Origin: Candidatus Woesearchaeota archaeon
Lineage (GTDB): Archaea > Nanobdellota > Nanobdellia > Woesearchaeales > JAFGPW01
Direction: 5' to 3'
Assembly (NCBI GenBank): GCA_016935985.1
Contig: JAFGPW010000004.1
Location: forward strand, 1-64,000
DNA length: 64,000 bases
Of this stretch, positions 18,522 to 57,666 are shown one piece after another. A program made the position numbers and the translations under genes. Position 1 is the first letter of the stretch, and the number at the start of each line of letters is the position of its first letter. The notes beneath the pieces were generated by a model. The model had not been told where the DNA came from. It did no database searches and saw only the letters and a list, made by a program, of their open reading frames with translations.

Positions 18522-18673
18522 CGGAAGTGGGGAAATGGAGGTCCCTTTATAAAGCTTTTCCTTCAGACCGATATATAAATAGAGGGATGGCATTGCGAAA
18601 CATTTATATAGATAAATATACTACTAATAGGTAATAACATTTAACCTGAAAAAATGAGGTGAGGTGGATAACC

Positions 18674-19297
18674 ATGACTGATGATACCACGAACTCGCTC
18701 GTCGAGAAGCTGGACAGCACGGGCTGGGGAGCAAAAACGCTCTATTATGCCCAGAAGCTCGCGCTCCCGGTCGTCATCCTCGGCGCGACCGTCCTTTCGA
18801 GCTGCGGCTCCAAGAAGGGCTTTGACAATGTCCCTGACCTCGACGACTACGACATGGAGTTCGACTTCACCGCCGGGATGCCAGCAGAGCAGACGGGGTT
18901 CGATGCGGTCTACAAGGGCCAGATCGGCAACGTCGAGGTGACCGTTCTCGAGGGCAGCGTGCATAACGGGAAGAAGCACCATGTCCTCGCTTGGGGGCAC
19001 ATCAAGCAGCCGGAGAGCTACCGCATCGCGCCGAAGTATATGCCGTGGGGCCTGGGCGACAAGCGGACCAGGATGGAGACGGTCGAGAAGGTCTTCGTCG
19101 CCGACCAGGACACCAGCGACGATCATCTGGACCGGCTCGTGGCGGTGGGTCCGGTCATGATGGACCTGAACGCGAAGCATCCGTCCCTGCAGAAAGGCGG
19201 GTTCTTCTACGAAGCCTTCAAGAAGGGACTCCGCGCGCCGGCGGACCAGAAGACCGCGAAGATGGCCCAGTTCTACGCTGATATGAAGAAGCGGTGA
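18674..19297 (+). CDS. Hypothetical protein with TM segment and lipobox-like LSSC
   Basis: Hydrophobic LALPVVILGATVLSSCGSKKG near N-terminus followed by soluble domain; AT-rich promoter (catttatatagataaatatac) upstream. Confidence 0.7.
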   Translation: MTDDTTNSLVEKLDSTGWGAKTLYYAQKLALPVVILGATVLSSCGSKKGFDNVPDLDDYDMEFDFTAGMPAEQTGFDAVYKGQIGNVEVTVLEGSVHNGKKHHVLAWGHIKQPESYRIAPKYMPWGLGDKRTRMETVEKVFVADQDTSDDHLDRLVAVGPVMMDLNAKHPSLQKGGFFYEAFKKGLRAPADQKTAKMAQFYADMKKR

Positions 19298-29767: not shown

Positions 29768-30172
29768 ATGGGGATATTCGACAGGCTGATGTTCTGGAAG
29801 AAGGATGACGGGCTCGGCGACATGCCGGGGCTCGACACGCCCGTAGGCCACGACCTCGGGCTCCCCGACGCCGGCGCCGACCCGATGGGGCAGCAGCAGA
29901 ACCTCGGGATGCCGACCCAGGACGACAGCTTCGGCGCCGATGCGGGGCCGTCACGGCCCGGCTCGTTCTCGTCATCGTCCTATTCGCAGCCGTCGTACGG
30001 GCACTCGCAGGCAGGGAGCTCGTCGCACGAGATCATCGTGGGCAAGGAGATCGAGATCATCTCGAGCAAGCTCGACGCGATTAGGGTGTCGATCGAGTCC
30101 ATCAACCAGCGGCTGTCCAACATCGAGCGCATCGCGTCGGGAGAGCAGTCCAAGCGCGACCGGTATTGGTAG
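29768..30172 (+). CDS. Small hypothetical protein, Ser/Gly/Gln-rich linker with C-terminal helix
   Basis: MGIFDRLMFWKKDDG...IEIISSKLDAIRVSIESINQRLSNIERI. Confidence 0.55.
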   Translation: MGIFDRLMFWKKDDGLGDMPGLDTPVGHDLGLPDAGADPMGQQQNLGMPTQDDSFGADAGPSRPGSFSSSSYSQPSYGHSQAGSSSHEIIVGKEIEIISSKLDAIRVSIESINQRLSNIERIASGEQSKRDRYW

Positions 30173-30209
30173 GGATAGGTTTATAATGTCCCTCGGCCTC
30201 TCGGGCATC

Positions 30210-30698
30210 ATGGCACGACGCACGCGACCCGGCATCGCCGCGTTTTTCTCAATCAGGCGCAACCGGCTGTTCGTCGCCGTCGCCGCAGGGACGTTCCTCC
30301 TCGACGCCCTCGTCAAGCAGCTCGTGCGGTCGTTCCTCTCTGTCGGCGAGGACCTTGTCGTGATCCCTGGCCTCTTCGCGTTGACAAGGTTCGAGAACAC
30401 AGGCGCGAGCTTCTCCATCCTCGAGGGATGGACACCCTTCCTCGCGGTCTTCTCGGTCCTGATCGGCGTAGGGATCATCCATTATTATGCGCGCATCCCG
30501 GGACGGCTCAGGACCCCGTTCGCGCTCGTGCTCGGAGGCACCGCGGGGAACCTCATCGACCGGGTGGCGTTCGGGACGATCACCGACATGTTCGCCTTCA
30601 AGCTGGGAGGGGTGGGCATGCCGATCTTCAATGTGGCCGACATCGCGGTCTTCGTCGGCGGCGCCGCGATACTCCTCTACCTCATCAGGGCGAGATGA
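30210..30698 (+). CDS. lspA: Lipoprotein signal peptidase II (LspA-like)
   Basis: NTGASFSIL, LGGTAGNLIDRVAFGTITDMF, FNVADIAVFVGGAAILLY: both catalytic Asp motifs; TATA box at about 30177-30187. Confidence 0.9.
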   Translation: MARRTRPGIAAFFSIRRNRLFVAVAAGTFLLDALVKQLVRSFLSVGEDLVVIPGLFALTRFENTGASFSILEGWTPFLAVFSVLIGVGIIHYYARIPGRLRTPFALVLGGTAGNLIDRVAFGTITDMFAFKLGGVGMPIFNVADIAVFVGGAAILLYLIRAR

Positions 30699-33940: not shown

Positions 33941-34522
33941 TCAGTTCTTCCTCTTGCGGTACGCGACGAACCCTGCCGCTCCGAGGAGCGCGAGCCCGGC
34001 GCCCATGGTGCCGAACTCGGGGATCTCGTTCTCGCCGTCATCGAAGCAGACGGTGATGTGGCTGATCCCTGCGATGTTGCCGCCGTTGTTGACCGGCGGG
34101 TGCAGGCCGTAGTCGCTCGTCGCCTCGGGGTCGTACTCGTAGACGTTGGCGTTGTCGCCGCCCTTGGCGATGACCGCGCTGATGCCGATGTCAGACGACC
34201 AGTCGAAATAGGTCTCGTCGCCGGTGGAGACCAAGAAGGTCCCGTGGCCGTCGAGGTCCCAGTCGCCGTCGTAGGTCCAGGTGCCGACATAGTCGTCAGG
34301 CTCCTCAATCTTTACCTCGTTGTCATAGCCGAGGTCGGCGCAGGTCGGGTTGCCCGCGACGAAGTGCTCGCAGTCCGGGTCAGCCATGTCGATGTCGCCG
34401 TCGAGATCGTTGTCGATCCCGTCCCAGCACTTCTCGAGGCCTGGCGCAGCCACCGGGGTGGCGAACGCCATCGGCAGCGCGAGCAGCATGAGTGAGAGTA
34501 TGAGCGTGATGGTCTTGTTCAT
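33941..34522 (-). CDS. Secreted protein with C-terminal PEFGTMGA sorting-like tag
   Basis: Signal peptide; ...NEIPEFGTMGAGLALLGAAGFVAYRKRKN at C-terminus; KCWDGIDNDLDGDIDMADPDC. Confidence 0.8.
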   Translation of the reverse strand: MNKTITLILSLMLLALPMAFATPVAAPGLEKCWDGIDNDLDGDIDMADPDCEHFVAGNPTCADLGYDNEVKIEEPDDYVGTWTYDGDWDLDGHGTFLVSTGDETYFDWSSDIGISAVIAKGGDNANVYEYDPEATSDYGLHPPVNNGGNIAGISHITVCFDDGENEIPEFGTMGAGLALLGAAGFVAYRKRKN

Positions 34523-34566
34523 GGGTTTCGCCTTCCTCTTTACTCTACTTCAGGTTCACCCCTTTT

Positions 34567-34596
34567 ATTGAAAAAAAATGAGATAAAAAAAAGTGG
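34567..34596 (-). terminator. T-tract terminator downstream of 34606 gene
   Basis: Minus strand CCACTTTTTTTTATCTCATTTTTTTTCAAT. Confidence 0.5.
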
Positions 34597-34605
34597 AAGA
34601 AGAGC

Positions 34606-35376
34606 TTAGTTCTTCTTCTTGCGGTACGCGACATAACCGGCAGCACCGAGGAGCGCGAGAGCAGCACCGACAGTGGTGAACTCAGGGAGGTAATCCCAAT
34701 CGAATCCGTTCAGCTCAAGGATGTCGTTGCCGCAGGTCTGCGTGATGTGCCAGTCGCTGATGTCCTGGAATTGGGGCGTGCCGAGAAGGCCCTTATTGGC
34801 CTCGATCTCAACCACATAGGTGTTGTGGCTGTTGTCAGCACCCGCCTTGAACAGGGTGTAGACAAGGTCAGCAGTGCCAGTCCATACGCTGTCACTGCCA
34901 TCGCAGGTGAAATCAGCTTCCGGATCCCTGTCCGCAAACGCAGCGGTCCAGACAGGCAGGTAACAGACCTTGCCAGCGTCCGCGCCGCGCAGCTTGATGC
35001 CGTACTCGTATCCCTGGTCGCCCCATTCCGGGTCATTGTCCAGGTCAAGCGCGAGGGCATTCATGTAATAGCCGCTCACGCCGCTCGAACCGAGGGACGT
35101 GACGATGGCGAAGTACGCATAGCCGCCGAAATCGTCGAAGTAGAGGGCCTCGAGATCGAAGGGCTCACCGCCGATAGGCATAGAACCCGGGCCCGCAGGC
35201 CAATCATCCTCTATGTAATCTATATCAGGGTCTGCCGGGACGAAGTCGCTCGCGTGATAGGTACCATCGCTGAACGGATCAACTCCCCAATCGGAAAGAT
35301 CACCGTCGATGGTGTACGCTGAGACTACGCCTACCAGAAGCAGAAACGCCGCAACAAATGATATCATTTTCTTCAT
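34606..35376 (-). CDS. Secreted protein with C-terminal PEFTTVGA sorting-like tag
   Basis: Signal peptide MKKMISFVAAFLLLVGVVSA; C-term LPEFTTVGAALALLGAAGYVAYRKKKN. Confidence 0.85.
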   Translation of the reverse strand: MKKMISFVAAFLLLVGVVSAYTIDGDLSDWGVDPFSDGTYHASDFVPADPDIDYIEDDWPAGPGSMPIGGEPFDLEALYFDDFGGYAYFAIVTSLGSSGVSGYYMNALALDLDNDPEWGDQGYEYGIKLRGADAGKVCYLPVWTAAFADRDPEADFTCDGSDSVWTGTADLVYTLFKAGADNSHNTYVVEIEANKGLLGTPQFQDISDWHITQTCGNDILELNGFDWDYLPEFTTVGAALALLGAAGYVAYRKKKN

Positions 35377-35707
35377 GGTGGTCGACCTCCAAAACGTTTT
35401 GGTTGGTTTCTCCTGTGAGAGTAGGAGTGTGATGTGTGTATGGCCCCCAACGGCCGTATCTAGTCTGTTTATATGATTTATGGAAGCTGGTTCATTAACT
35501 TATATTTAAATGTTTCGATTATGTTATTACTTATCAGTGGATACTTATTGAACCGACTTTGGAGCACCACAGCATGTATGGTTCTCCTCGATTGTTCCCC
35601 CCCAAGCTGACGCTTGACGCGTCATATCTGTCTACGAGTTAAGGGTGGTACCTGCTTATATATATAAATGTTTGGGTATCCGGTTTAAAATAGGGTATAT
35701 TAACGAA

Positions 35708-36304
35708 TTACCAGAACATCCAGCTGCCGGTGGCGATGACATAGGCCGCGAGGCAGAGGTTCGCCGCCGCGTGCGCGTTGATGACCCCGTTCATGTCTTT
35801 CCGCAGGTACCAGACCAGGTTGAGGAGGAACCCTGCGACAAGGCCGGGGAGCCACTGGGCGTGCGAAAGCCCGAAGAAGAGGATGGTGAAGACGAAGGAG
35901 ACGAGCGTGAAGGTGCCCATCCTCACCTTCTCCCACCGGTACGGGTCGATCAGGTACCGCATCAGGAACCCGCGGACGAAGAACTCCTCGACGATCGGCA
36001 CGAGCAGCACCGCGCCGAGGGCGCGAAGGAGCATGGCGAACACCGAGTCCGGCACGAAGCCGCTCGCGAACGCCGGCGGGTAGGCGCCGTCGAGCACGAT
36101 CCAGAAGAGGAAGATCATGATGCCGATGAAGACCGCGAACGGGTCGAGCCTGTAATCGAACTGGTAGTGCTTCCGGTACGCGAGCACCGCGATGAGGGTC
36201 GCCGCGACCTTGATCGCGTACGCCCAGGTGTCGTCCGCGCCGAGCGCCTTCGCGAGCGGGGATGAGAAGACATAGACGATGAACGGGACGAGGTACTGTT
36301 TCAT
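35708..36304 (-). CDS. CPBP/CAAX-type intramembrane protease, resembles PEP-CTERM-associated CAAX protease-related proteins
   Basis: EEFFVRGFLMRY, FFGLSHAQWLPGL, NAHAAAN: Glu-Glu...Arg / His / His CPBP motifs; multi-TM. Confidence 0.78.
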   Translation of the reverse strand: MKQYLVPFIVYVFSSPLAKALGADDTWAYAIKVAATLIAVLAYRKHYQFDYRLDPFAVFIGIMIFLFWIVLDGAYPPAFASGFVPDSVFAMLLRALGAVLLVPIVEEFFVRGFLMRYLIDPYRWEKVRMGTFTLVSFVFTILFFGLSHAQWLPGLVAGFLLNLVWYLRKDMNGVINAHAAANLCLAAYVIATGSWMFW

Positions 36305-36412
36305 TGTCGGCGGGTCCGGGGCTGTGCCAGTCACTATATATTCCTTTCGGAAACAGGGGATTGACGACGCTTCACAAGTTTTTTAAATGCCGGCTGGCTT
36401 GCCGCGCCCATC

Positions 36413-41394: not shown

Positions 41395-42165
41395 ATGACC
41401 GGCATCATCGAAGCCATCGTCCTCGGCGTCGTGCAGGGCATCACCGAGTGGCTGCCGGTGTCGAGCTCGGGCCATCTCGTGCTCGTCCAGCAGCTCTTCG
41501 GCATCGACGTCCCGGTGGTCTTCGACCTGCTGCTGCATGTCGCGACGCTCCTCGTGCTCCTCGTCGTCTTCCGGAAGGACATCCTCGCGATCCTCACAGC
41601 AATCGTCAAGGGCGACTTCAGGTCAGATGAGGGAAGGCTCGCGATCCTCATCGCCGTCGCGACCATCCCCATCGTCCTCGTCGGGCTGCTCTTCAAGGAC
41701 GCTATCGAAGGCCTGTTCTCGAGCGTCTCGGCTGTCGGCTTCGCCCTGCTCTTCACCGCCGGCCTGCTCTTCGTGTCAGAGATGCGGCCCGGGAAGAAGG
41801 CGCTCGACTGGAAAAGCTCGCTCATCGTCGGCTGCGCGCAGGCGGTGGCAGTCGTGCCGGGGATATCCCGCAGCGGCGCCACCATCTCGGCAGGGCTCCT
41901 GCTCGGCATCGAGAAGGAGAAGGCGGCGCGCTTCTCGTTCCTGATCTTCATCCCGGCGGTCGTCGGCGCCATGGTCCTCGAGCTCGGCGAGATCGCCTCT
42001 GCGCAGCTCGATCCCATGCCGGTCGCCGCCGGCATGATAGCCGCGTTCGCCGTCGGCTATATCTCGCTGCGCTGGCTGCTGCGGCTCGTCGTGCGGCGAA
42101 GGTTCCACCATTTCTCGTACTACTGCGCCGCGCTCGGCCTCATCGCGCTCGCGCTCTCCGTCTGA
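41395..42165 (+). CDS. uppP: Undecaprenyl-diphosphatase (UppP/BacA family)
   Basis: VLGVVQGITEWLPVSSSGHLVLV, VVPGISRSGATISAGLLLGI. Confidence 0.95.
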   Translation: MTGIIEAIVLGVVQGITEWLPVSSSGHLVLVQQLFGIDVPVVFDLLLHVATLLVLLVVFRKDILAILTAIVKGDFRSDEGRLAILIAVATIPIVLVGLLFKDAIEGLFSSVSAVGFALLFTAGLLFVSEMRPGKKALDWKSSLIVGCAQAVAVVPGISRSGATISAGLLLGIEKEKAARFSFLIFIPAVVGAMVLELGEIASAQLDPMPVAAGMIAAFAVGYISLRWLLRLVVRRRFHHFSYYCAALGLIALALSV

Positions 42166-42724
42166 CGAAGACGACCGATGCGAGGAGCACCATGAGCGCC
42201 CCCAGCGTCGAGAACTCGGGCACCGGCGCCGCGGCAGGCACGGTTTCTCCATGGACGCCAGGCGTGCCGCCGACGCTTCCCGGCTCGAACCGGTCGTCGA
42301 TCCTCACGATGCTCACGCCTGACGGCGCGATCGGGGTGTAGAGCACGCTGTCGACGACCGTCTTCGCGCTGTCGGCGAGCGCGATCTCCTCGCCCGTGTT
42401 GGAGAGCGAGAACGATGCCCGCGCGAGGCTGCCGGAATACGAGGGGTGGTCTCCCATGAATGCCGCCGGGTCAGAAGCGAGCACTGTCACGTCGTTGGTT
42501 TCTAGGGTCGGGGGACCGGCGACGGCGGTGATCCCATGGAAGACCCCGTTCTCGTAGAAGTACCACGTCTCGATATCGACCGGCACCGGGCCGGTGTTCT
42601 GTATCTCCATCCATTCCCTGCCGGCGTCGGCGCCGTCGGGGTCGTACATGATCTCGGTCAGCTCCTGCGCCGCGATAGGCACTGCGGCGAGGATGAGGGC
42701 TATCGCAAGGACGGTTAGTTTCAT
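42140..42724 (-). CDS. Lamin-tail-domain (LTD) secreted protein with PEFSTLGA C-terminal tag
   Basis: QELTEIMYDPDGADAGREWMEIQNTGPVPVDI; C-term PVPEFSTLGALMVLLASVVFVRRRARAR. Confidence 0.82.
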   Translation of the reverse strand: MKLTVLAIALILAAVPIAAQELTEIMYDPDGADAGREWMEIQNTGPVPVDIETWYFYENGVFHGITAVAGPPTLETNDVTVLASDPAAFMGDHPSYSGSLARASFSLSNTGEEIALADSAKTVVDSVLYTPIAPSGVSIVRIDDRFEPGSVGGTPGVHGETVPAAAPVPEFSTLGALMVLLASVVFVRRRARAR

Positions 42725-42799
42725 CAGCACCACCTCCGTGATGGAGGTTCGATAGGAGCGGTGCTTAAAATGGGTTTGGGAGAACTTCCCGGAGATCCT

Positions 42800-44320: not shown

Positions 44321-47300
44321 TCACCGCCTCCGCTCGTCCCGCATCTCCTCGAGCGCCTGGGTGGGCGAGTAGTACTTGCCCTGCCTGGAGACGAGCCCTT
44401 CGTGGAAGAGGAAGTCCATCAGGTCCTTGGTGTGGGGCAGCCCGTCGCCGAGGAGCTTCGCCGCGCGCACGAGCGTGATCCCCCGGTGCGCGAGCAGGAT
44501 GTCGCGCAGGTCATACACCGTCGCCGGGCGCTTGATGAGCTTGCGCTTCATCTTGGCGATGAGCGCCTCGCCGGTCGTGAATTTCGCCATCACGAAGAAG
44601 GTGAGGAATCCTGCGACGAGCGCGAGGACCACGATCTTGACGATATCGCTCGGCGTGAGGATGAAGAGGTCATTGCCGGTCTCCTCGCCGATCTGGCGGG
44701 GCTCCTCGTAGAGGACCTCGATGCCGCCTTCCTCTGCCCCCTGCATCTGCTGGCCGAGGGCGCCGGTGGCCTCCGCCGCGGTGCCGGTCTGGCTCCCTGC
44801 TGCAGGCGCCTCCTCTGCCAGCGCCTCAGGCTGCTCCTCGCTCCCGGCGCCGCCGGCCGTCGCCGTCTCGGTCACGGCCGTGCGTTCGACATAGAAGTCG
44901 GTCGACCCCGACCCGCCGCCCGAACGGCGCGAGGGCTCCTCGCAGTCGCCGCAGTCGGCGCGGCAGCTCTCGCAGTCCTCCTCGTCCTGGCACCGGCCGT
45001 CGCCGCAGTAGGGGCAGGCGCCGCAGTCGGCCGCGCAGACGTCGCAGCCCTCGTCCGTCTGGCAGGTGCCGTCGCCGCAGTAGGGCGCGACGTAGCTCGT
45101 GTCGACGGTGAAGCTGCCTGTGGGAGCCGTCGCGGTCGCGAAGCCGTCGGTGCAGGAGACGGTCCAGTAGTAGGTCGTGCCGTCACTGAGCGCGAAGGCG
45201 CGGCTGGTGCCGGTGTGGTTCTGGCGGTGGACGAGAGCGGTCAACGCCTCGTCGGTCGCGAGGGTGAGCGTGTGGACGAGCGTGTCGGTGGCGTCGATGT
45301 CATGACCGGGCAGCCACGTGAGCGTGACAGTCGTGTTCGCGACCGTCTGGTTGGCGAAGGTGAGCTGCGGCGCCGTCGGCGCGTCGTTCACGTTGTTGAC
45401 CGTGATGGTGATAAGCGTCCAGGCGAAGAAGGTCCCGTCGTAGATCGATATGTTCACCGGGTTCGGGCCGACATCATCGTTCGTCGGCGTCCAGTCGATC
45501 ACGCCGTCCTGGTCGATCGCGAAACCCGGATGGTCGTCGAAGTAGTTGATCTCGTCGCCGTTGGGGTCGGTCGCGCCGATGTCATAGCTAAAGTGCTGGT
45601 CCTCGATCGCGATCTGGCCGGTCGGCTCGGGGTCGAAGTACGGCGGCTGGGGCGGGCCGGTGTAGTTGATGGTGAAGGTCCAGGTGGCGGAGTCTGCGGT
45701 CCGCGCGGTCGTGTCCTCCGCCTGCACGTGCCAGTTGTACAGGCCGTTGGAGAGGTTCTGCGTGAAGGTGTAGGACTCGGTATCGTGTGGCGCGTCATGC
45801 ACGCTGCCGCTCGCGTTCGTGACGACGAGCCGGTGGGTGAGCGTGTCGCCCTGGTCAGGGTCGGTGCCGTTCTGCCAGGAGAGCGTGGGCGTCTGGTCGG
45901 CGGTTGTCTCGCCGTTCGTCGGCATCTCGAGGACCGGCGGGTTCGGCGGGCTCACGAAGCCGACCGAGACGATCCTTGCTGATGTCGTCGCCTGCTGGCT
46001 CGCGTTGTCGGTCGCGCGGCAGGCCCAGGCATAGACCCCGTCCCCGGGGAAGGGGTGGGTGTAGGAGAGCGTGTCGGACGTCCCGGAGGCGGGCTCGGAA
46101 TGGACCACCGCGAGGCTGCCTGACTCGTTGGTGAGCAGCGCTACGGAAGCAAGAAGCTGGTCATCAGATGCCGAACAATTGAAGAACACGCTGAAAGAGG
46201 CTGGAGAAGAAAAAAAAATCCCCGGCCAGTCCGGGACTATTGATGGGTAATTGTCTAGCGGTGGGTTGCCGGAATGGTTGGTGTCCCAGACAATTATGTC
46301 ATAGATACTGCCAGTGAGGTATGTCATCCCACCGTAGTCGGCGGTGCCTGCGATGTTACCTGCAGGTGCGTATTCGACCGTGTAGTCGTTGCCAGTGTGG
46401 GTGCTTAGGTTGACCGTACGGTTGTCCTGACGCCATGAAAGGCCGAACACCTGACCATCATCGCTGTGCGAGCGAAAGAACATCGTGCTCGCATTGAACT
46501 GGGTAAGATAGTATTCGTCTTCCGGGATGGAGAGGTCGTTCAGGATGTAACGCCAGATGCCGTCGAGGGCCTTCCTCGTCTCAACGTTTTCCCACCAGGC
46601 GGCCCACATTGGTATGCCAATATAGTAGTTGCCGTCATTCTTATAGAGGAGGGTTTTATTATCCTTGTCCATAAAGACCGTCCCGGGTAGTCCAAGCCCA
46701 TCGACGCTGTAGATATCATAGGTGTCACTGAGGTTCAGGACCGTGCCGTTGCCGAAGTCGATGGTATCAGTCGTCGTCTTGCTCCGCTGGGTGTCGATGC
46801 CGGTGAGCGTCGACCAGAGCGAGCTGTCGGCAGCGGTCCCGTTCGGGTATTTCGTGAAGCTGTCTGAGTCGAAGATAATGGTCTTCGAGCCCGAGAGCGC
46901 GGTGAGCAGGTTATGGAGCTCCTTCCTCGCGTACTCGCACTGGAAGCACATGATGTATTGGTAGGGGTCGAGCACGCTCGGATCGTTGATGATCTGGCGA
47001 ATGCCCTTAACGTCCATGTTGATGCCGAGCTCCATCGCTCGGTGCTGGGCTGTGTAGGCGCGAGTTCCACCACTAAGCCCATCCTTGACGAACGCAGCAC
47101 CCATCACCCCAAAGCTATCCTCTGGAGTGACCAACACCCATTCAGCATCGGAAATATCAAAATGTTTTCCTTCCACATATGCGAATGTGTCTAACGTCGA
47201 TTGCCAGTTCTCGGTGGTGTTACCATAATCGCTACAGCTGTAAACCATACAGTTGCCGTCCTTCCGATATTCTCTACTCCATTCGACTATACCATCACCA

Positions 47301-49507
47301 CCACCAAGAACATTTGAAAAAATATCATATTTAATGATCTCGGAAGTGATATTCGATTCGGTATTGCTCTCAAAATTCTGGCCAAGGGTATAGATATTAC
47401 GGTAGGGATGAAGGCCCTTAGCATATTCGGTGAAATAGAGGTTCTTGATATAACCCTTGAATCCATCACCACCACCAATATAGTCCTTATAGGTATAAGT
47501 CTCCTCCATGAGCAGTGCATCCCAACTCTCGTTGTACAAATCCACCAATCGGAGGTTCTCTCCCCATGACATCCAATTATAAACAGCTTTCGGCATCGCT
47601 GGGGCATGCAGTATTTGCCATTCAGGATAACGTGCCTTTATCCGAAGATACAATTTTGAGTTCGCACATGAAGCCCCTTCCCTAACGAACTCGGCAGCAT
47701 CATGCCTAAAAGAAGCATTCTGCCAGAATGGTAGCCAAGAGCAATCAGGGGCATAACCATACCGATCTATGAACTCACTTTGGTAGGTTATGAGTATCTC
47801 ATCACAATTGTTGTTGTAGAGGTATTCTGAGGGATACTCATCCCATAGCAGCACGTGGCTTATTTTATCCTTATAGGGACCTTGATACAAATCATCTAAA
47901 AGGGTGAACAGGTTGTTGGTCCTCTCCCGCAAGAACTCGTCGTTATAACATGCTTCGAGCGGCGGGACTGAAGATTCTTTTATCCAATCCTTGATACTGA
48001 TCATATAGAAGGAATCAGTATCGTCAGGATCAACGATTCTATCCATCTCAAGTTCATACCCGTATGCATTAGGGAAATTTGTTCCAGTGTAATATCCGAT
48101 GACATCACCATCGGTCTGGGTCATGGTCGTAGTGGCTGTTGATGAATTGATGAGTGTCCCAGTGATGTATGGTTCATCCCAAGCGGTAAAAGTGATATTG
48201 TTCTGCGCCCAAGTCATCGTCCCGTCTGATAGCCTGCAGAGTACTCCCCAGGTATTTGAACCGTATGGGACGATAAGCTCTTTCGCACCGAGTGTCGCAT
48301 TCTTAATGTCTGAAAATTCGATTTTATTATTCCCATCAAGGTAAATGCGGCACCAGGAGGGCGCATCTTGTGTCCATGAGATATTGTAGATGAAATGCGT
48401 CGCCTGTTGTGGGTGTGTACAGCCCTCGCAGGGGGCATAGAGTTGGATAAAGGGTTCAGGAGTATTGAATACACTAAACGAATCATTCGTTGAAGCATTG
48501 ATATTGCCGTCGGTGTCATAAGCGACTACATTCCATTCATGCACGCCGTTGCCGATAGTGAGGGTAGTAGTATAGAGACCTTCATATCCACTGGTATTGG
48601 AGTAGACCCGTTGGCCATCGAGATATATTTCTACCCGCTGGATGGTCCGATCGTCGGTGACTGTGTAAATGAAATCTACTGAAGAATCTGACCACCCCGC
48701 CCACCCCCGGATATCTTCGACCGGGTTGATTTGGACATCGGGATTTTTCCAATAGCTGGTGTTAGTAAGATCCCAACAGCTTGTATCGTTGACCGCTATA
48801 GAATAGACTTCTATCCGAAAGAGTGTTATGTTCACACCGCCATTGCCCCCTGTTTCGGCTCCGACGGTCAAATCGTCTGCTCCTTTGGTAATAGTCCCGG
48901 TGAAGGGATCGCTCGTCCCCAAAAGGATGCAATCCTTATATATTTTCCAATGGGTCGAGTTACCAACGATAGTCAATACGAATCGATCCCCTTCAGGAAA
49001 AAAGGATTTATCGACAGTTATATCCCGATCGCCGCTAACATCATAAGCATACCATCGCAGGTAGTTATCGAAGAGATCGAGCGAAAAATCATTGCTTTTC
49101 CTGATGATGTATGATGCTGGAGAAGGATTACCCCATAAATCAATCCGCATGTCGAGTTTGATGGTGAAGATGTTACCGAGGTCCCAGCCATTTGATGATG
49201 TAAAATCATGTAGATATGCAGTATCGTTTGTGCTCCAGGTATAAGGGTCGCGATCCCAATACCAGTCGTTGCCACTCCCAAGGTTGGTCAGGTCGTCCGA
49301 GCCGCAGAAATCGGTCATGAGAGTGTTATTTACCCCTTCGCCGGTATATAGATGCTCGCAATAGGGCTGATACGCTGCAGGGGGCGAATATATCTGCCAT
49401 CCGATTATCCTGAATTCTTCCAGAAGGAAGAAGAACACGCCAGCTATGAGAATGATGAAAAGGGCAGAGAGCAGGGTCTCATGCTTCTTCGCGTCATTGC
49501 CAATCAT
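44321..49507 (-). CDS. Giant membrane-anchored surface protein (1728 aa): LamG-like/glycosidase-like N-part, cadherin/FN3-like repeats, Cys-rich repeats, TM and cytoplasmic wHTH-like tail
   Basis: N-term TM; lectin-like segment; PNPPVLEMPTNGETTADQTPTLSWQNGTDPDQGDTL repeats; YCGDGTCQTDEGCDVCAADCGACPYCGDGRCQDEEDCESCRADCGDC; TM; VYDLRDILLAHRGITLVRAAKLLGDGLPHTKDLMDFLFHEGLVSRQGKYYSPT. Confidence 0.75.
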   Translation of the reverse strand: MIGNDAKKHETLLSALFIILIAGVFFFLLEEFRIIGWQIYSPPAAYQPYCEHLYTGEGVNNTLMTDFCGSDDLTNLGSGNDWYWDRDPYTWSTNDTAYLHDFTSSNGWDLGNIFTIKLDMRIDLWGNPSPASYIIRKSNDFSLDLFDNYLRWYAYDVSGDRDITVDKSFFPEGDRFVLTIVGNSTHWKIYKDCILLGTSDPFTGTITKGADDLTVGAETGGNGGVNITLFRIEVYSIAVNDTSCWDLTNTSYWKNPDVQINPVEDIRGWAGWSDSSVDFIYTVTDDRTIQRVEIYLDGQRVYSNTSGYEGLYTTTLTIGNGVHEWNVVAYDTDGNINASTNDSFSVFNTPEPFIQLYAPCEGCTHPQQATHFIYNISWTQDAPSWCRIYLDGNNKIEFSDIKNATLGAKELIVPYGSNTWGVLCRLSDGTMTWAQNNITFTAWDEPYITGTLINSSTATTTMTQTDGDVIGYYTGTNFPNAYGYELEMDRIVDPDDTDSFYMISIKDWIKESSVPPLEACYNDEFLRERTNNLFTLLDDLYQGPYKDKISHVLLWDEYPSEYLYNNNCDEILITYQSEFIDRYGYAPDCSWLPFWQNASFRHDAAEFVREGASCANSKLYLRIKARYPEWQILHAPAMPKAVYNWMSWGENLRLVDLYNESWDALLMEETYTYKDYIGGGDGFKGYIKNLYFTEYAKGLHPYRNIYTLGQNFESNTESNITSEIIKYDIFSNVLGGGDGIVEWSREYRKDGNCMVYSCSDYGNTTENWQSTLDTFAYVEGKHFDISDAEWVLVTPEDSFGVMGAAFVKDGLSGGTRAYTAQHRAMELGINMDVKGIRQIINDPSVLDPYQYIMCFQCEYARKELHNLLTALSGSKTIIFDSDSFTKYPNGTAADSSLWSTLTGIDTQRSKTTTDTIDFGNGTVLNLSDTYDIYSVDGLGLPGTVFMDKDNKTLLYKNDGNYYIGIPMWAAWWENVETRKALDGIWRYILNDLSIPEDEYYLTQFNASTMFFRSHSDDGQVFGLSWRQDNRTVNLSTHTGNDYTVEYAPAGNIAGTADYGGMTYLTGSIYDIIVWDTNHSGNPPLDNYPSIVPDWPGIFFSSPASFSVFFNCSASDDQLLASVALLTNESGSLAVVHSEPASGTSDTLSYTHPFPGDGVYAWACRATDNASQQATTSARIVSVGFVSPPNPPVLEMPTNGETTADQTPTLSWQNGTDPDQGDTLTHRLVVTNASGSVHDAPHDTESYTFTQNLSNGLYNWHVQAEDTTARTADSATWTFTINYTGPPQPPYFDPEPTGQIAIEDQHFSYDIGATDPNGDEINYFDDHPGFAIDQDGVIDWTPTNDDVGPNPVNISIYDGTFFAWTLITITVNNVNDAPTAPQLTFANQTVANTTVTLTWLPGHDIDATDTLVHTLTLATDEALTALVHRQNHTGTSRAFALSDGTTYYWTVSCTDGFATATAPTGSFTVDTSYVAPYCGDGTCQTDEGCDVCAADCGACPYCGDGRCQDEEDCESCRADCGDCEEPSRRSGGGSGSTDFYVERTAVTETATAGGAGSEEQPEALAEEAPAAGSQTGTAAEATGALGQQMQGAEEGGIEVLYEEPRQIGEETGNDLFILTPSDIVKIVVLALVAGFLTFFVMAKFTTGEALIAKMKRKLIKRPATVYDLRDILLAHRGITLVRAAKLLGDGLPHTKDLMDFLFHEGLVSRQGKYYSPTQALEEMRDERRR

Positions 49508-49600: not shown

Positions 49601-50428
49601 TTAAAAAAGGAAATTGCTGACGCGGTCGAGGAATCCTGCCTTCGCCGGCGCCTTCTTGGGGTCTATATAGGCCCGCTTGACCGTGAAATGGACGGCCGCG
49701 AGCACCAGGAAGAGGATCCACCAGGGGAAGAGCGGCTCTCTGGGCGTGCCGGCGATGACCGCGCCGGTGACAAGAGTATCCCCTTTGTCATCCTGCTCCT
49801 CAGTCTCCTCCTCAGGCTCGTCCTCGATGGTGACCGAGACTGTCGTGGGGAGCGGCTCGGGAGCGCTTCCCGAGTCCTGGGCGGACTCCTCTTCGGTTGA
49901 TTCCTCGGCGACACAGACGCACCCGCCGTCTGCGCAGGTCCACATGCCGTTGCAGGTCGGCGTGCCCATCGAGCCAGACGATCCTGAGCTGTACCTGCGC
50001 CTGACCGGCGCAACTGGAGTGTCGTCATCATCGTCGTTGCCGCTGTCGCCGGGTGCCTGCGGCTCTTCCGCCGGGCAGCCGGCGGTCTCGGCAGGGTTGA
50101 AGTCGTCGAGGTCCGCCTCATGGCCGCAGCCGTCGGCATCGAGGTCGACCTGCTCATCGCTGTCGTCAGGGAAGGCATCGCAGTAGTCGGTCCAGCCGTC
50201 GGCGTCGGCGTCGGGGTTGAAGGAATCGGTATCGTGCGTGCACGCGCCGTCGAATTCGTACCAGTGGTACGCGCAGGTCTGGTCGTTGAAGCCGCAGTAG
50301 GGCCTGCCGTCCTGGTTATAGCAGCCGTTGTCCGCCGCGCAGGACGGGATCTCACTGGCAGAGAACGCCGAGAGCGCGGTCGCGGCGAGCATGAGGGTGA
50401 TGATGATGCCGAAGACGAGGCGGTTCAT
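49601..50428 (-). CDS. Secreted Cys/Asp-rich protein with Ca-binding-type repeats and C-terminal TM
   Basis: DSFNPDADADGWTDYCDAFPDDSDEQVDLDADGCG; C-term WWILFLVLAAVHFTVKRAYIDPKKA. Confidence 0.75.
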   Translation of the reverse strand: MNRLVFGIIITLMLAATALSAFSASEIPSCAADNGCYNQDGRPYCGFNDQTCAYHWYEFDGACTHDTDSFNPDADADGWTDYCDAFPDDSDEQVDLDADGCGHEADLDDFNPAETAGCPAEEPQAPGDSGNDDDDDTPVAPVRRRYSSGSSGSMGTPTCNGMWTCADGGCVCVAEESTEEESAQDSGSAPEPLPTTVSVTIEDEPEEETEEQDDKGDTLVTGAVIAGTPREPLFPWWILFLVLAAVHFTVKRAYIDPKKAPAKAGFLDRVSNFLF

Positions 50429-50961
50429 CGCTGTCGCCTCCGCTTGTAGAGGACATAACCGTTCGCGCCGACGAGCGCCGCAAGCGCGCCGATCGTGCCG
50501 AACTCGGGCACAGCGTCGATGGGCTCTTCGGGGACCGGGTCCCGCTCCTGGAGCATGCTGACGGTGAGGCCGGCGCCCTGACCGATGTTCGTCGGCTCGC
50601 CGTCATCGTACGTGCCGTCACGGTCGAGGTCGGCGAAGAGGTCGAAGAGGCCGGTCGTGAACGCGGTCCAGGCCTTCTTGAGGGCGATCACGAAGCCGCC
50701 TGCGGTCACGGTCTCGACCGAGCCGGTCACGTCGGCCATCGCTTGGCCGTCGGAATAGGCGTCCTGGTCATCGACCACATAGAGGTCGACCTCCTGGTCG
50801 TCCTGATAACCGGTGCCGTAGACGCAGACATCCTCGCCGTAGGCGAAGTCGGTCTTGGGAAGCCCGGTGCCGCAGTCGTAGGGCATGATGCTCGCATCGG
50901 CATAGGCGAATGAGGCCAGCATGAGCGCGAGCATGACGCTTGCGATGATGATTTTGAGCAT
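50425..50961 (-). CDS. Secreted protein with PEFGTIGA C-terminal tag
   Basis: Signal peptide; C-term DAVPEFGTIGALAALVGANGYVLYKRRRQR. Confidence 0.82.
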   Translation of the reverse strand: MLKIIIASVMLALMLASFAYADASIMPYDCGTGLPKTDFAYGEDVCVYGTGYQDDQEVDLYVVDDQDAYSDGQAMADVTGSVETVTAGGFVIALKKAWTAFTTGLFDLFADLDRDGTYDDGEPTNIGQGAGLTVSMLQERDPVPEEPIDAVPEFGTIGALAALVGANGYVLYKRRRQR

Positions 50962-51144: not shown

Positions 51145-52266
51145 ATGCCTCCATCACTCCCCCAGGCGATTATCGTTCTTCCGACCTATAACGAGGCCGA
51201 CAATATCGGCAAGCTCCTCCCCCGACTCGTCTCGATCGCAGAGGAGCTGACCCAGTATGACATGCACATCCTGGTCGTGGATGATACGAGCCCTGACGGG
51301 ACGGCTGGCATCGTCAGGAAGCACATGAAGAGGAGTCGCCGCATCCACCTCCTGATGGGGGAGAAGCAGGGGCTCGGCATGGCCTATATCCGCGGCTTCA
51401 AGCATGCGATCCGCGAACTCAAGGCTGATGTGCTCTTCGAGATGGACGCCGACTTCTCGCATGATCCGAAATATCTCACCCAGTTCCTCGAAGCACTCGA
51501 TGACGGCAAGGATTTCGTCATAGGATCCCGCTACATACTTGGCGGGGCAGTCCCGGACTGGGGTCTCTCCAGGAAGGCAATTTCCGCAGGCGGCAATTTC
51601 TTCGCGCGAATCGTGGCTGGACTCTACAGCGTGCACGACTGCACCTCTGGCTATCGCTGCATCAGGGCGGCCCTCATCAAGCGCATCGATCTCGATGCGC
51701 TCAACGCGAGAGGGTACGCGTTCCAGATGAATCTCCTCTTCGAAGCGCACCGTCTCGGTGCCAGGATCGGCGAGATCCCGATCGTCTTCTACGATCGCAA
51801 GGTAGGGAAATCCAAAATCTCCAAGGATGATATCATGGAGTTCTTCTCGAACTCCTTCAGGCTCAGATGGGAGGGGTCGAGGAGGTTTGTCAAGTTCTGC
51901 CTCGTCGGTCTGAGCGGCGTCCTTGTCAACCTCGGCGTCCTCATCTGCCTTGCTGAAGGACTCGACGTCGCCAAGGAGATCGCGTCCGCAGGAGGCATCC
52001 TGGTCTCGATATTCACCAACTTCCTCTTCAACGAGTTCTGGACCTTCCAGGACCGCCGTTGCGGCGGCGCCAAGGGCGCAGGGATGCGAGTCCTGCAGTT
52101 CTATGCCGTGTCGTTCGTCGGTGCTGCCGTCCAATGGGGCGTCTTCCTGCTGGGCTACCGTCTGCTCGCTGCCGATTACCGAGTATCCCAGCTTATCGGC
52201 ATCGGCATCGCGACGTTCTGGAACTACTTCGTGAACAAAATGTGGACCTGGTCCAAAGGGGACTGA
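51145..52266 (+). CDS. Dolichyl-phosphate mannosyltransferase (GT2) fused to GtrA-like domain
   Basis: IIVLPTYNEADNIGKLLPRL, VVDDTSPDGTAGIVRKH, MDADFSHDPKYL, then FVKFCLVGLSGVLVNLGVL...TNFLFNEFWTFQDR...FWNYFVNKMWTW. Confidence 0.93.
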   Translation: MPPSLPQAIIVLPTYNEADNIGKLLPRLVSIAEELTQYDMHILVVDDTSPDGTAGIVRKHMKRSRRIHLLMGEKQGLGMAYIRGFKHAIRELKADVLFEMDADFSHDPKYLTQFLEALDDGKDFVIGSRYILGGAVPDWGLSRKAISAGGNFFARIVAGLYSVHDCTSGYRCIRAALIKRIDLDALNARGYAFQMNLLFEAHRLGARIGEIPIVFYDRKVGKSKISKDDIMEFFSNSFRLRWEGSRRFVKFCLVGLSGVLVNLGVLICLAEGLDVAKEIASAGGILVSIFTNFLFNEFWTFQDRRCGGAKGAGMRVLQFYAVSFVGAAVQWGVFLLGYRLLAADYRVSQLIGIGIATFWNYFVNKMWTWSKGD

Positions 52267-52267
52267 C

Positions 52268-53911
52268 ATGCCAGCGCCGAAGGTGTTAAAAGACGAATGG
52301 AGAGGGGTAGTGATCATAGCCGCGGCTCTCTTGGTACTCAGTTTTATACCGACGCTCTGGGGATTCATCACGACCCCGCAGGACCATACCTATATGTGGA
52401 TCTCCAAAGAGGTCATGGATGCAAACAACCATCTCAATCTCATGCTCCAAGCAAAGGATGGATATCTCCTGCAGCGGAACGGCTTCACGTCCGAAGCCAT
52501 GAGCAGGCTGTTCTTCAACCCGTACGTGCTCGTGATTGGTTGGTTATCTGCCATCAGCTCTGTCCCAATCATCGCCTTTTACCACCTATTCAGGATCGTA
52601 TTCGGCGGCGGATTCCTAGCGATGCTCTACCTGTTCATCGCGTACCTAGTGCCAAACAAGCACGAACGCCTCACCGCATTCCTCATCGCATCGGCCGGAG
52701 CGGGGTTCGGGTTCTTCTTCGAGGTCGTGAGAATCACCACTGGGTTCATGTTCGTGAGCCCTGACCTCTGGGTGACCGACCTTATCCCGTTCACGTATCT
52801 TAGGATGCCCCATTTCGCGCTCGCTGCGCTCCTCATGGTCAGCGTGCTCTACCTCTTCCTCAGGGGCCTGCGTGACGGATGGAGGTATGCAGTCGGCGCA
52901 GGCATCCTCTGCTTCCTGCTAGCGACGGTCCATCTCTTCGAGGTCATCACTATCTACCTACTCATGGGTGTCTATGTGCTCGTTATGTTTTTCCATGAGA
53001 AACGGTTCTCGTTCCAGCCTATCCTGAAGACCGCCTTCATTGTTATCATATCGATTCCCGCCATGCTTTACAACTATTCGGTCTTCATCCTCGATCCGGT
53101 GTATGCGAAATGGACGGAGCTCAATGTCACGGTCTCACCGAACATCATCAACTACATCTTCGGGCTCGGGTTCATCTTCTTCTTCGCGCTCTACTATGTG
53201 TATATCGAGACCGGCAGGCGGAAGCTCACCAAGGACGATGTCTTCCTCCTCGCGTGGATTATCATCTCCGTGCTCCTCATGTACTCGCCGCTCGCGACCC
53301 AGAGGCGATTCGTCTTCGGGGTCATGGTGCCCTATGCCATACTCGCCGCTCTTGGGATAATCAGGTATTTTATCCCTACCATGACCGATAAGCTCAAACC
53401 GCTCCATGTCGAACATTTCAAGCTGTTCCTGCTCGCGGTGTTTGTGCTGTTGATTGCCGGGACCAACATCCTCTCAGTCGCCGGCGATGTCGCGACAATC
53501 CATCCTTTGCTCTACTCGGCCGAGAATGAGTATGTCAATGATGTTTATCTCACCGACGACGAGATTTCTGCGCTCGATTGGCTCGCGCAGAACACCGGCG
53601 ATGATGATACGGTCATGTCGGGCCTCAGGATCGGCAACTACATCCCGCGTGTCGCAGGGAACCGGGTGCTGCTCGGCCACTGGGCGCAGACGATTGATTT
53701 CGTCGACCGCAGGGCTGAAGTCGCGTCGTTCTATGCCAATCCCACAAGCCTGAACGCAAAGGGCCTGATTGGGAAGTTTGGAATCAATTATATCTATGCC
53801 GGAAGTGAGGAGCAGGCCCTCGCGGGTGGGAATCTCTCGTTCGGTGCTGGGTATGAGATGGTCTATACTGCAGGAAACATCACCCTCTATAAGGTCGGAG
53901 GGATAGCATGA
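52268..53911 (+). CDS. Polytopic membrane protein, GT-C-like
   Basis: About 11 TM segments and C-terminal globular domain; operon with DPM1-GtrA and flippase. Confidence 0.65.
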   Translation: MPAPKVLKDEWRGVVIIAAALLVLSFIPTLWGFITTPQDHTYMWISKEVMDANNHLNLMLQAKDGYLLQRNGFTSEAMSRLFFNPYVLVIGWLSAISSVPIIAFYHLFRIVFGGGFLAMLYLFIAYLVPNKHERLTAFLIASAGAGFGFFFEVVRITTGFMFVSPDLWVTDLIPFTYLRMPHFALAALLMVSVLYLFLRGLRDGWRYAVGAGILCFLLATVHLFEVITIYLLMGVYVLVMFFHEKRFSFQPILKTAFIVIISIPAMLYNYSVFILDPVYAKWTELNVTVSPNIINYIFGLGFIFFFALYYVYIETGRRKLTKDDVFLLAWIIISVLLMYSPLATQRRFVFGVMVPYAILAALGIIRYFIPTMTDKLKPLHVEHFKLFLLAVFVLLIAGTNILSVAGDVATIHPLLYSAENEYVNDVYLTDDEISALDWLAQNTGDDDTVMSGLRIGNYIPRVAGNRVLLGHWAQTIDFVDRRAEVASFYANPTSLNAKGLIGKFGINYIYAGSEEQALAGGNLSFGAGYEMVYTAGNITLYKVGGIA

Positions 53912-55353
53912 AGACTGCCCAACGCATCGTCAAGAACACCGGCATCCTTTTCGCAGGATTGAATATCAACAAGGTAATTACTCTTTTTCTCACCATCGTC
54001 ATCGCGCGATATCTCGGCAATGTCGACTTCGGCAAGTTCGCGTTCGCAATCTCCTTCACCGGCCTGTTCATCGTGCTCACCGACATCGGCATGAGGATAT
54101 TCATCAAACGTGAGGTTGCACGTGACCTCAAACGGGCAGACCAATACCTGAGCAATGTTCTTGCCATGAAGGTCGTGCTGACGTTCGTTACTCTCATCGT
54201 TGTGTATTGTGTCGCGCTCCTACTCCAATATGCAACTTTCACAATCTTCACCATCTTGATAGCTGTCGCGATTATGGTATTCCAATCTTTCAACGACTCG
54301 ATTGACATGGTCTACCAAGCGTTCGAGCGCATGGACTACAGCGCTGGCATCACAATCGCCAGGACGGTCATCAGGTTCGGACTTGTGATCGTCGCTGTCC
54401 TCGCAGGCATGAGCTTTGTGGGTATCCTCCTGATGTTTCTCGCATCAAGCATCATCAGCCTCATTATCAGCCTCATCGTCTTCACGCGGAGATTCTCTTC
54501 ACTCTCGTTCGAAATTGATTTCGATTTCTTGAAGGACCTTATCAGAAAATCAATTCCGTTCGGTGTCGCAGCCATGTTCATGACCATCTATGCGAAAGTC
54601 GATGTGACCATGATATCGAAGCTCGTACTCGAGAACACGGATGCGGTGATCGGTTGGTATAGCGCAGCGCATACGCTCATCGACGGGCTACAGTTCATTC
54701 CTGTTGCTATCGCAGCTGCTATTGAACCTATTGCTGCGCGAGCTTTTGAGAAATCGATACCAACTTTGAAAAAAATATATACTAACACTTTTCGGATACT
54801 AATCATACTTTCATTCCCTATCGTATTGGGGACACACATTCTTGCAGAGAAAATTATCTTGTTAATATATGGGCCAGAGTTTATGGAATCAGCTATAGCT
54901 CTCCAAGCCCTAATATGGATGATGTTATTCCATTTCCATGTTTTCACATATGGTTTGGTATTGAATTCAATGAATAAAGAGAAATTGACCATGTTCTTCA
55001 CGATTATTGCGGTATTGGTAAATATTACATTGAACTTAATCTTGATACCACAATTCTCATTCATAGGAGCAGGAATCGCAACAATATTTTCAGAATTCTC
55101 TTATTTCATTTTAGGATACATCTATATCTCAAAAAAATTTTTGGTACTAAATATTATTAAGTATATTTATAAACCAATCATCGCGACAGGCGTAATGGGT
55201 TTGTTTCTCTATTATTTCCCAGCAATCCCTGTGATAATCCAGGTTATTGTAGGTTCAGTAATCTATTTCTCTGTTTTATTCATCATTAGGGGCATCACCA
55301 ATGAAGATAAAAAAGTTATAATTAACCTAATATCTAAGAGGTTTATTATATGA
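53908..55353 (+). CDS. Polysaccharide/oligosaccharide flippase (Wzx/MATE-like)
   Basis: RYLGNVDFGKFAFAISFTGLFIVLTDIGMRIFIKREVARD...; 12-14 TM. Confidence 0.9.
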   Translation: MKTAQRIVKNTGILFAGLNINKVITLFLTIVIARYLGNVDFGKFAFAISFTGLFIVLTDIGMRIFIKREVARDLKRADQYLSNVLAMKVVLTFVTLIVVYCVALLLQYATFTIFTILIAVAIMVFQSFNDSIDMVYQAFERMDYSAGITIARTVIRFGLVIVAVLAGMSFVGILLMFLASSIISLIISLIVFTRRFSSLSFEIDFDFLKDLIRKSIPFGVAAMFMTIYAKVDVTMISKLVLENTDAVIGWYSAAHTLIDGLQFIPVAIAAAIEPIAARAFEKSIPTLKKIYTNTFRILIILSFPIVLGTHILAEKIILLIYGPEFMESAIALQALIWMMLFHFHVFTYGLVLNSMNKEKLTMFFTIIAVLVNITLNLILIPQFSFIGAGIATIFSEFSYFILGYIYISKKFLVLNIIKYIYKPIIATGVMGLFLYYFPAIPVIIQVIVGSVIYFSVLFIIRGITNEDKKVIINLISKRFII

Positions 55354-56552
55354 AGATACTTATGGTGCACGATCTCGGTTACCGCTATGGCGGTGGTGAG
55401 ATATACCTCCTCAACATCAGGAAGGCCCTAGAGCAGCGAGGACATACCGTCAGAATCTTCACGTCCGATTACAATCCGACGGGAGAGTCGCTCTTCGCTG
55501 ACGATGTCGCACCAACAGGGGAAGGATCATTGTTCAGGATGCGGAGGATTTGGAACCGAAAGGCGAAATCAAGGCTCGCTGAGGTCTGCGCATCCTTTCG
55601 ACCGGACGTGGTGCATGTCCATAGTGTATTTTACCACCTTTCCGGCATGGCGCTGCGGGCTCTCAGGAAGTACCCTACCATACTCACCGTTCACAATTAT
55701 TTCATGTTCTGCGGCACCGGCTTGAAATATTATCCGGACTATGAGATATGCACGCATACGTTTGGAATGGTCTGTGTCAGGAAGGGATGCATTCCTTTTA
55801 AGGAATACCTCTTCCAGCTGGTTCTGCGGCATGTATTAAGGAGAGATCTAAAGAATGTCAATCTTTTCGTCCCCTGCTCAAGCTATGGCGCCTCTTTGCT
55901 CAAACAGAATCACTATTCGAAATTCTATATGCTCAATCACGGGATTGACCTTACAGGGTATGCCAGCAATCCTTTGCCGAAAGACAAGAACCTGCTTTAT
56001 TTCGGACGCCTCGTGAGGGAGAAGGGTGTTGATTATCTCATCAGGGGTATGCCAAAGGTGCTCGAGCGGTTTCCGGAGTATCGACTTCAAATCATCGGGG
56101 ACGGGCCTGAGAGGAGGAATTTGGCGGAACTCGCGAAGAGTCTCGGTGTTGGAAGCAAGGTCCGGCTCTTAGGGCATCTTCAGAACGAGCGCATTAAAAG
56201 GTATATTCAGAGGAGCAGAATCGTGTATGTCCCTTCAATCTGGCCCGACAATTCTCCAATTACCATTTATGAGACGCTCGCCTGCGGCAAGGCGATAATC
56301 GCTTCCCGGGTCGGAGGCATTCCCGATTTGGTGCATGACGGCAAAAACGGCTTCTTAGTCGACCGGAATGACTCGGACGCAATCGCGGAGAAGACTGTAG
56401 CGCTCCTGCGTGACCCGGCCCTGCTCAAGAGGTTCGGAGAGCACTCAAGGAAACTTGCCGAAGAGGAATTTGAAATAGGGGTTCATATAGGGAAACTAGT
56501 ATCCCTTTATTGCCAGGTTATTGAGGGTATTAGAACGCCCGTTGTGCGATGA
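55350..56552 (+). CDS. Glycosyltransferase family 4
   Basis: GGGEIYLLNIRKALEQRGHTV, VLRRDLKNVNLFVPCSSYGASLL, NLLYFGRLVREKGVDYLI, PSIWPDNSPITIYETLACGKAIIASRVGGIPDLV. Confidence 0.95.
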   Translation: MKILMVHDLGYRYGGGEIYLLNIRKALEQRGHTVRIFTSDYNPTGESLFADDVAPTGEGSLFRMRRIWNRKAKSRLAEVCASFRPDVVHVHSVFYHLSGMALRALRKYPTILTVHNYFMFCGTGLKYYPDYEICTHTFGMVCVRKGCIPFKEYLFQLVLRHVLRRDLKNVNLFVPCSSYGASLLKQNHYSKFYMLNHGIDLTGYASNPLPKDKNLLYFGRLVREKGVDYLIRGMPKVLERFPEYRLQIIGDGPERRNLAELAKSLGVGSKVRLLGHLQNERIKRYIQRSRIVYVPSIWPDNSPITIYETLACGKAIIASRVGGIPDLVHDGKNGFLVDRNDSDAIAEKTVALLRDPALLKRFGEHSRKLAEEEFEIGVHIGKLVSLYCQVIEGIRTPVVR

Positions 56553-57666
56553 GCGCCGCAAGCTGTTTCGCTGACCTGTCCCAACTGAACGTGTTCATAA
56601 CGAATTTTTTCCCCGCCCTGCCCCTTCTGTTCCGGTACTGCGTGTCGCTCATCAGCATGCTAATCTTCTTCGCGAGACCCAGCAGGTCATGCTCCTTGAA
56701 ATATTCGATATAGTTACCATAGACAGAACGGAATATCGGCAGGTCTGTTGCGATGCAAGGCTTACCCAGAGCCAGGGACTCCATAGGGGGCATACCAAAC
56801 CCTTCGAACGACGTCGGGAAGACAAGAAACATCGATTCCGAAATCACACGCCATTTCTCTTCGTCCGAGATACGACCGAGGAATTTAGAGTCGATACTGA
56901 GCTGCTCAGCTAGCTTTTGCAGCACTGCCCTCTCAGGCCCGTCCCCCACGATAACAACACCAGGACGTTTTCCCTTCGGGATGAGTGAAAGCGCTTTCAG
57001 GAGGTCATCGACATTTTTCGTCCGATAGAGCCTTCCGATATAGATAATCTGGCACCTCTCAACAACGCTCGGCAGGTCAGGTACCTTATCTATGCCTGGC
57101 AGGATGACCGCATCGACCTTGCGGTTGAGCCATTTCGATGCGTTCAACGCCGTAAGTCTTGAATTTGCGATGAGGATGTCGGATTTCTTCGCCACTTCAC
57201 GGAATTGCACCCATTCATCCTGGACTCGTTCATCGGTGTCGCCAGTCAGCTGGGCGTACCAATCAGGGGTCTCAAAGATGAAGGTGACCGATACAGCATT
57301 GATCCGTGTGGCTATCCGGTGAGCCTTGACAGCCGATGTCCTCTGGTAACCGATGACACAATCGAAATGTTCCTTTCTGCACCTAAGGTCAAAGAGACGA
57401 TCATTGAGACCCTCCCAAACCGAGTTCAGAATCCATATGCCGGGGAAGAAACGGGGAATCTCGCCGACATACCGTTGATAGCGGAACCACTGTTCAGACC
57501 CTGCCATGAAAGGCAACCTATTGATGCTGTAGATCCAGATTTCATGGCCCTGCCGTGCCAGTGCCTCGCAGAACTTGAAAACAGAATAATCGCCGCCCCC
57601 ATAATACCGACTCAAGTTCCTTGCAATCAGGAGTATTCTGAGCCTGCGGGGGCGTGCCATCAGCAT
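56530..57666 (-). CDS. Glycosyltransferase family 4
   Basis: YYGGGDYSVFKFCEALARQGHEIWIYS, IIYIGRLYRTKNVDDLLKALSLIP, FPTSFEGFGMPPMESLALGKPCIATDLPIFRSV. Confidence 0.93.
   Translation of the reverse strand: MLMARPRRLRILLIARNLSRYYGGGDYSVFKFCEALARQGHEIWIYSINRLPFMAGSEQWFRYQRYVGEIPRFFPGIWILNSVWEGLNDRLFDLRCRKEHFDCVIGYQRTSAVKAHRIATRINAVSVTFIFETPDWYAQLTGDTDERVQDEWVQFREVAKKSDILIANSRLTALNASKWLNRKVDAVILPGIDKVPDLPSVVERCQIIYIGRLYRTKNVDDLLKALSLIPKGKRPGVVIVGDGPERAVLQKLAEQLSIDSKFLGRISDEEKWRVISESMFLVFPTSFEGFGMPPMESLALGKPCIATDLPIFRSVYGNYIEYFKEHDLLGLAKKISMLMSDTQYRNRRGRAGKKFVMNTFSWDRSAKQLAALIAQRAF

Follow-up and report, generated by a model that had tools for sequence, protein, structure and literature searches.

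A woesearchaeal (DPANN) archaeon encodes what we read, with a probability of roughly 0.6, as an exosortase/archaeosortase system for sorting surface proteins, in which a CPBP/CAAX-type glutamic intramembrane protease would be an accessory acting on the same C-terminal helices. The protease is an XrtA/XrtE-type partner in a DPANN exosortase system, the exact step that it performs being a proposal. The window that we analysed, a stretch of 64,000 nucleotides on contig C4 of a 1.4 Mb genome (G000), carries four tagged proteins and the protease gene; the exosortase gene lies about 7.5 kb past its end.

An initial annotation had described four open reading frames of the window, all on the minus strand, as secreted proteins with a shared tripartite tail. 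On checking, all four proved to have the tail as described, each with an N-terminal signal-like segment, the motif PEF[GTS]T[IMVL]GA, a single hydrophobic helix and a basic end. The protein at 33941-34522 (193 residues, tag ENEIPEFGTMGAGLALLGAAGFVAYRKRKN, tail at 33944-34030, tail profile E 2.9e-19) has a core homologous to tagged proteins of G043, L107 and G237, and that at 34606-35376 (256 residues, tag DYLPEFTTVGAALALLGAAGYVAYRKKKN, E 3.3e-18), whose gene is separated from the protease gene by 331 bp, has a core with 41% identity over 241 residues to a tagged protein of G240. A secreted lamin-tail-domain protein (42140-42733; PF00932, 46 bits) ends in the tag PVPEFSTLGALMVLLASVVFVRRRARAR (E 2.8e-14), and the secreted protein at 50425-50961, with the tag DAVPEFGTIGALAALVGANGYVLYKRRRQR (E 1.7e-16), has a core common to tagged proteins in G063, G182, G240 and G268.

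The tag recurs well outside the window. The DNA pattern back-translated from PEFxTxGA, CCNGARTTYNNNACNNNNGGNGC, matched the 1.4 Mb genome exactly at eight places and the reversed control at none, and the tail profile search that the annotation had proposed returned ten tagged proteins with signal peptides (E 3e-14 to 3e-19); the profile was built from these same ten sequences, six of which, on contig C2, had first been found through the DNA pattern. These six are consecutive secreted open reading frames in a tandem array (G000:C2:18754-22528, corresponding to L009:10755-14529). The helix is highly conserved among the tails of this genome (consensus PEFGTxGAALALLGAAGYVAYRKRK), more so than a plain membrane anchor needs; between genomes, the only invariant residues are P-E-F (24 aligned tails). 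The tagged cores belong to many, mostly unrelated families. For several of them, homologues in other genomes also end in such a tail, and the tail is therefore a reusable module. Single exact pattern matches in G030 and G046 were unsupported by tail profiles and were taken as chance, and weak profile matches without PEF (for example in G028) were discarded. The tag helices of protease-bearing genomes differed in Gly/Ala content from those of genomes without the protease (p=0.003), but this result was left unused, since it is confounded by kinship and ANME-1 tags were wrongly grouped in it.

The same annotation had seen no archaeosortase, which holds inside the window but not genome-wide: a search of the genome found one with the Cys-Arg-His set, a protein of 353 residues at G000:C4:71510-72571. 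It gives the single match to PF09721 in the genome (C4:71762-72535, E 5.5e-18), and it passes both this model (55.6 bits, gathering threshold 25.7) and the superfamily model TIGR04178 (54.9 bits, cut-off 23), although none of the named subtype models. Cys252, Arg299 and His320 do not vary among 17 homologues, and the structure model is all-helical with multiple spans (pLDDT 87.2). Scores above the model cut-off, the Cys-Arg-His set and the multiple tagged proteins together place the enzyme in the exosortase/archaeosortase superfamily.

The protease, at 35708-36334 on the minus strand, is a full member of TIGR03008 (pepcterm_CAAX; 110.2 bits, cut-off 81.05), a PEP-CTERM-associated, CAAX-protease-like family. 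It had been noticed through the arrangement EEFFVRGF...H...H and its place next to two tagged proteins, and its CPBP residues are indeed intact: E116-E117-x3-R121, H158 and H188-x3-N192 are invariant in nine homologues, as is a C-terminal Trp. It is the sole match to PF02517 (CPBP) in the genome, and it matches the C-terminal half of TIGR04162, the protease half of exosortase E, with E 2e-26. In a tree of the family, archaeal and bacterial members are mostly separate; a single Zixiibacteriota sequence falls among the archaea, in a weakly supported position. Alignments of the exosortase and the protease had no match among sequences of solved structures, and Foldseek searches with both models (pLDDT 90.7 for the protease) returned only meaningless matches with E above 1.

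The distribution of tag, exosortase and protease across genomes links the three. Among 80 genomes of the same order, one per family, TIGR03008 was above cut-off in 9 and an exosortase was present in 18, and all 9 protease genomes were among those with an exosortase (p=2e-7). In a set of 246 genomes of the order, 16 of the 17 with the protease also had an exosortase (p=8e-13), the sole exception being G185, which is 87% complete and in 240 contigs. Strong tags, defined by a tail profile E of 1e-6 or better, occurred with an exosortase in 15 of 16 genomes (p=6e-12); only in G179, a genome 71% complete, was a strong tag found without exosortase, and it was also the only case of tails with neither enzyme. 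Co-occurrence of strong tags with the protease, a check put forward in the annotation, was 10/16 (p=7e-10). Since five genomes (G111, G200, G237, G255 and G268) had strong tags and an exosortase with no TIGR03008 gene found, the protease is not essential, and the figures of 15/16 versus 10/16 mark the exosortase as the core enzyme, with the protease as an accessory. Exosortases without the protease are in fact common (27 of 43 genomes of the 246-genome set), and in the protease-bearing genomes G007, G010, G041 and G055 tags were absent or only weak and variant. In the exosortase tree the enzymes from tag-rich, protease-bearing genomes mostly group together, and the co-occurrence is therefore partly due to common descent.

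A second scan, by a different method, covered 28 genomes reached through the protease (Woesearchaeota, other Nanoarchaeota MAGs, one Methanophagales archaeon, Planctomycetota, Myxococcota and others); 26 of them have an exosortase. The remaining two, L140 and L142, have weak protease matches, that of L142 being the weakest of all. One genome, G010 (a single 1.3 Mb contig; L123/L052), holds an exosortase, the protease, a FemAB relative, an above-cut-off TIGR03006 deacetylase and variant PEL/PEM tails, and among archaea it perhaps comes nearest to the complete XrtA gene set of bacteria.

Proximity of the genes points in the same direction, and the expected association of protease homologues with tagged proteins was observed. 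In 8 of 11 loci, one of them from Methanophagales, a tagged gene is found less than 2 kb from the protease gene. The chance estimate for this proximity, 2e-13, is rough, because the tag counts of three of these genomes come from one contig only and protease loci in which no tag was detected are left out. The nearest tagged gene is 83-285 bp from the protease in L104, L107, L111, L114, L118 and L120, and 1.5 kb away in L113. In L118 two PEF-CTERM-tailed proteins follow the protease, one of them above the TIGR03024 cut-off, and in L114 the exosortase (5053-6492), the protease (6494-7093) and a tagged open reading frame (7177-7422) stand in direct succession. The L114 exosortase has an apparent Ser for the otherwise invariant catalytic Cys (CKGSSGFES versus the usual xxCSGIES), which may point to a variant nucleophile, an inactive enzyme or a mistake in the assembly; the L114 tag has a Cys two residues before PEF (GDCSPEF).

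What can be read directly is the tag, its recurrence, two enzymes with intact active-site residues, and their co-occurrence and adjacency; the catalysis, the order of steps, the anchor and the link to glycans we infer, as follows. ArtA and the sortases cut near a motif and transfer the protein to an anchor. Here the signal peptide would export the proteins, and the C-terminal [IV]PEFxTxGA-helix-basic tail would hold them in the membrane. The cysteine exosortase would then make its cut in the PEF motif or close to it, and would most likely hand the protein to a new anchor, as proposed here on the model of ArtA in Haloferax. The protease at 35708, a predicted intramembrane glutamic endopeptidase, may be a dedicated accessory on the same C-terminal helices, either trimming the precursor or clearing the helix stump after the exosortase cut. 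That it acts on the same helix, before or after the exosortase, we hold with moderate confidence: the bacterial fusion of both domains argues for action on one substrate, and strong tags that accompany an exosortase but sometimes no protease speak against the latter as primary cutter. A broader version, at somewhat less than even odds, is a two-protease pathway in which a cysteine exosortase and a glutamic intramembrane protease work successively on one helix, encoded by separate genes in small-genome archaea and fused in bacterial exosortase E, so that the machine would be shared across domains and the tag would be DPANN-specific.

The annotation had suggested that the protease might process, or be co-opted for, the tag. 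It does belong with the tag, as it tracks the exosortase and often adjoins tagged genes; a main or co-opted role in place of an archaeosortase does not fit, as the genome has an exosortase. The protease could still itself recognise and cleave the PEF tag in the manner of myxosortases and MYXO-CTERM, leaving another tag or step to the exosortase, and it does adjoin tagged genes more often than the exosortase does, and shows weak matches to myxosortase models. CPBP proteases are able to cut tripartite tags, as MrtX does, and MrtJ adjoins its target gene (PMC11980579). We nevertheless consider this quite unlikely: the five genomes with strong tags and exosortase in which no such protease was found speak against it as main processor, strong tags follow the exosortase better than the protease, and tagged genes also flank the exosortase directly, in G043 and G111.

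The protease might instead belong to the exosortase pathway and have another component as its substrate (the exosortase, a lipid-linked partner or a glycan enzyme). Its being optional for the tag would agree with this, as would the glycan-related relatives of XrtA-associated TIGR03019 and TIGR03006 in the same region, but in many families, and at one Methanophagales locus, it is closely linked to tagged genes, which makes such a role unlikely. That the tails are ordinary C-terminal membrane anchors, alike by descent or composition and never processed, is highly improbable. A helix followed by basic residues is a common anchor shape, and the LPXTG model TIGR01167 also scores on the tails; set against this are the pattern matches absent from the reversed control, P-E-F in 24 of 24 aligned tails, the unrelated cores and the tracking of the exosortase by the tag. 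An accessory protease acting on exosortase-sorted tails remains our preferred reading.

The LPXTG scores deserve a separate comment. Two window tails (33941-34522 and 34606-35376) pass TIGR01167 with 19.6 and 16.3 bits (cut-off 15.9), in matches that begin at profile position 13, i.e. that cover the helix and basic end. We rejected the LPXTG class for them, the motif before the helix being PEFxT and not LPXTG. The tail of L046:14458-14889 is also above this cut-off, and these passes likely mislabel PEF tails. Among the curated tag models none fitted the window tails, and current models would call some tagged proteins LPXTG-anchored in automatic annotation, though they are archaeal.

A run of surface-glycan biosynthesis genes (glycosyltransferases, a Wzx-like flippase and a hexapeptide transferase, 51145-63342) starts about 51 kb into the window and continues past its end up to the exosortase. 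A FemAB-like gene on the minus strand (63339-64000 in the window, G000:C4:63339-64376 as a whole) is a near-full match to TIGR03019 (249 bits over the full length, cut-off 260), an XrtA/PEP-CTERM-associated family, and the run also holds two ATP-grasp proteins, an MraY-like transferase and a deacetylase (TIGR03006, 162 bits, cut-off 276). Co-occurrence with the exosortase is only moderate for FemAB (TIGR03019, p=0.017) and the deacetylase (TIGR03006, p=0.10), and we therefore treat these relatives as context and not as defining parts. The cluster beside the exosortase is probably linked to the sorting pathway; bacterial PEP-CTERM systems have a comparable exopolysaccharide context (PMC1569441).

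Other genes of the window also concern the cell surface. An open reading frame at 44321-49507 encodes a predicted surface protein of 1728 residues with Ig-like repeats and one C-terminal membrane span; the predicted cytosolic segment after the span resembles a winged helix, and the protein is possibly a membrane-tethered regulator. An LspA-like lipoprotein signal peptidase (29940-30698) and a secreted protein with a lipobox-like LSSC (18659-19297) suggest a second, lipoprotein-type anchoring route in this genome. A protein of 1415 residues (7971-12218) has three von Willebrand-A-like stretches and a cupredoxin-like stretch between membrane spans, and no PEF tag.

Small-genome DPANN archaea are believed to make contact with other cells through their surface proteins, and the system described here would extend exosortase-type surface sorting to them; among the open-access papers searched, we found no joint mention of archaeosortase and DPANN or Woesearchaeota. 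We know of no test of the purpose of the exosortase-CPBP pairing. In a genome that has a single exosortase, a single CPBP protease and ten candidate substrates, the division of labour between the two enzymes is testable. The genes also provide an independent, cross-domain case for the pairing noted as gene fusions in 2006 (PMC1569441).

The PEF-CTERM/archaeosortase C system of methanogenic and methanotrophic archaea (TIGR03024, TIGR03762) is likewise archaeal, with PEF, a helix, a basic end and an enzyme of the exosortase superfamily, and a Methanophagales protein beside a homologue of the 35708 protease passes TIGR03024 (39 bits, cut-off 23). The window tails, in contrast, reach at best 9.9 bits, and six more tagged proteins of the order gave no match at E<=1, or 11.6 bits; the helix here is Gly/Ala-rich with PEFxTxGA, and the exosortase had no match to TIGR03762 at E<=0.001. 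Myxosortases (MrtX, MrtC, MrtP and MrtJ) share with the 35708 protease the CPBP fold, EExxxR and HxxxN, and a link to a tripartite tag, but its scores are far below their cut-offs (Mrt_core 25.7 versus 100, MrtJ 27.6 versus 75), it accompanies an exosortase, and its tag is without the invariant Cys of MYXO-CTERM. The bacterial XrtA/PEP-CTERM/exopolysaccharide system similarly combines in one region an exosortase, a TIGR03008 protease and relatives of the TIGR03019 FemAB and TIGR03006 deacetylase; here, however, the host is archaeal, the motif is PEF and not PEP, the exosortase scores 33.6 bits against a cut-off of 208, and FemAB and deacetylase fall below theirs. Bacterial exosortase E is a natural exosortase-protease fusion associated with VPEID-CTERM (TIGR04162), and the two woesearchaeal proteins match its profile in turn, the exosortase at 151-295 and the protease at 328-514, though below its cut-off of 150 bits. 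Four exosortase-protease fusions were noted by Haft et al. in 2006 (PMC1569441); here the two activities would reside in separate genes about 35 kb apart, and serve a different tag motif.
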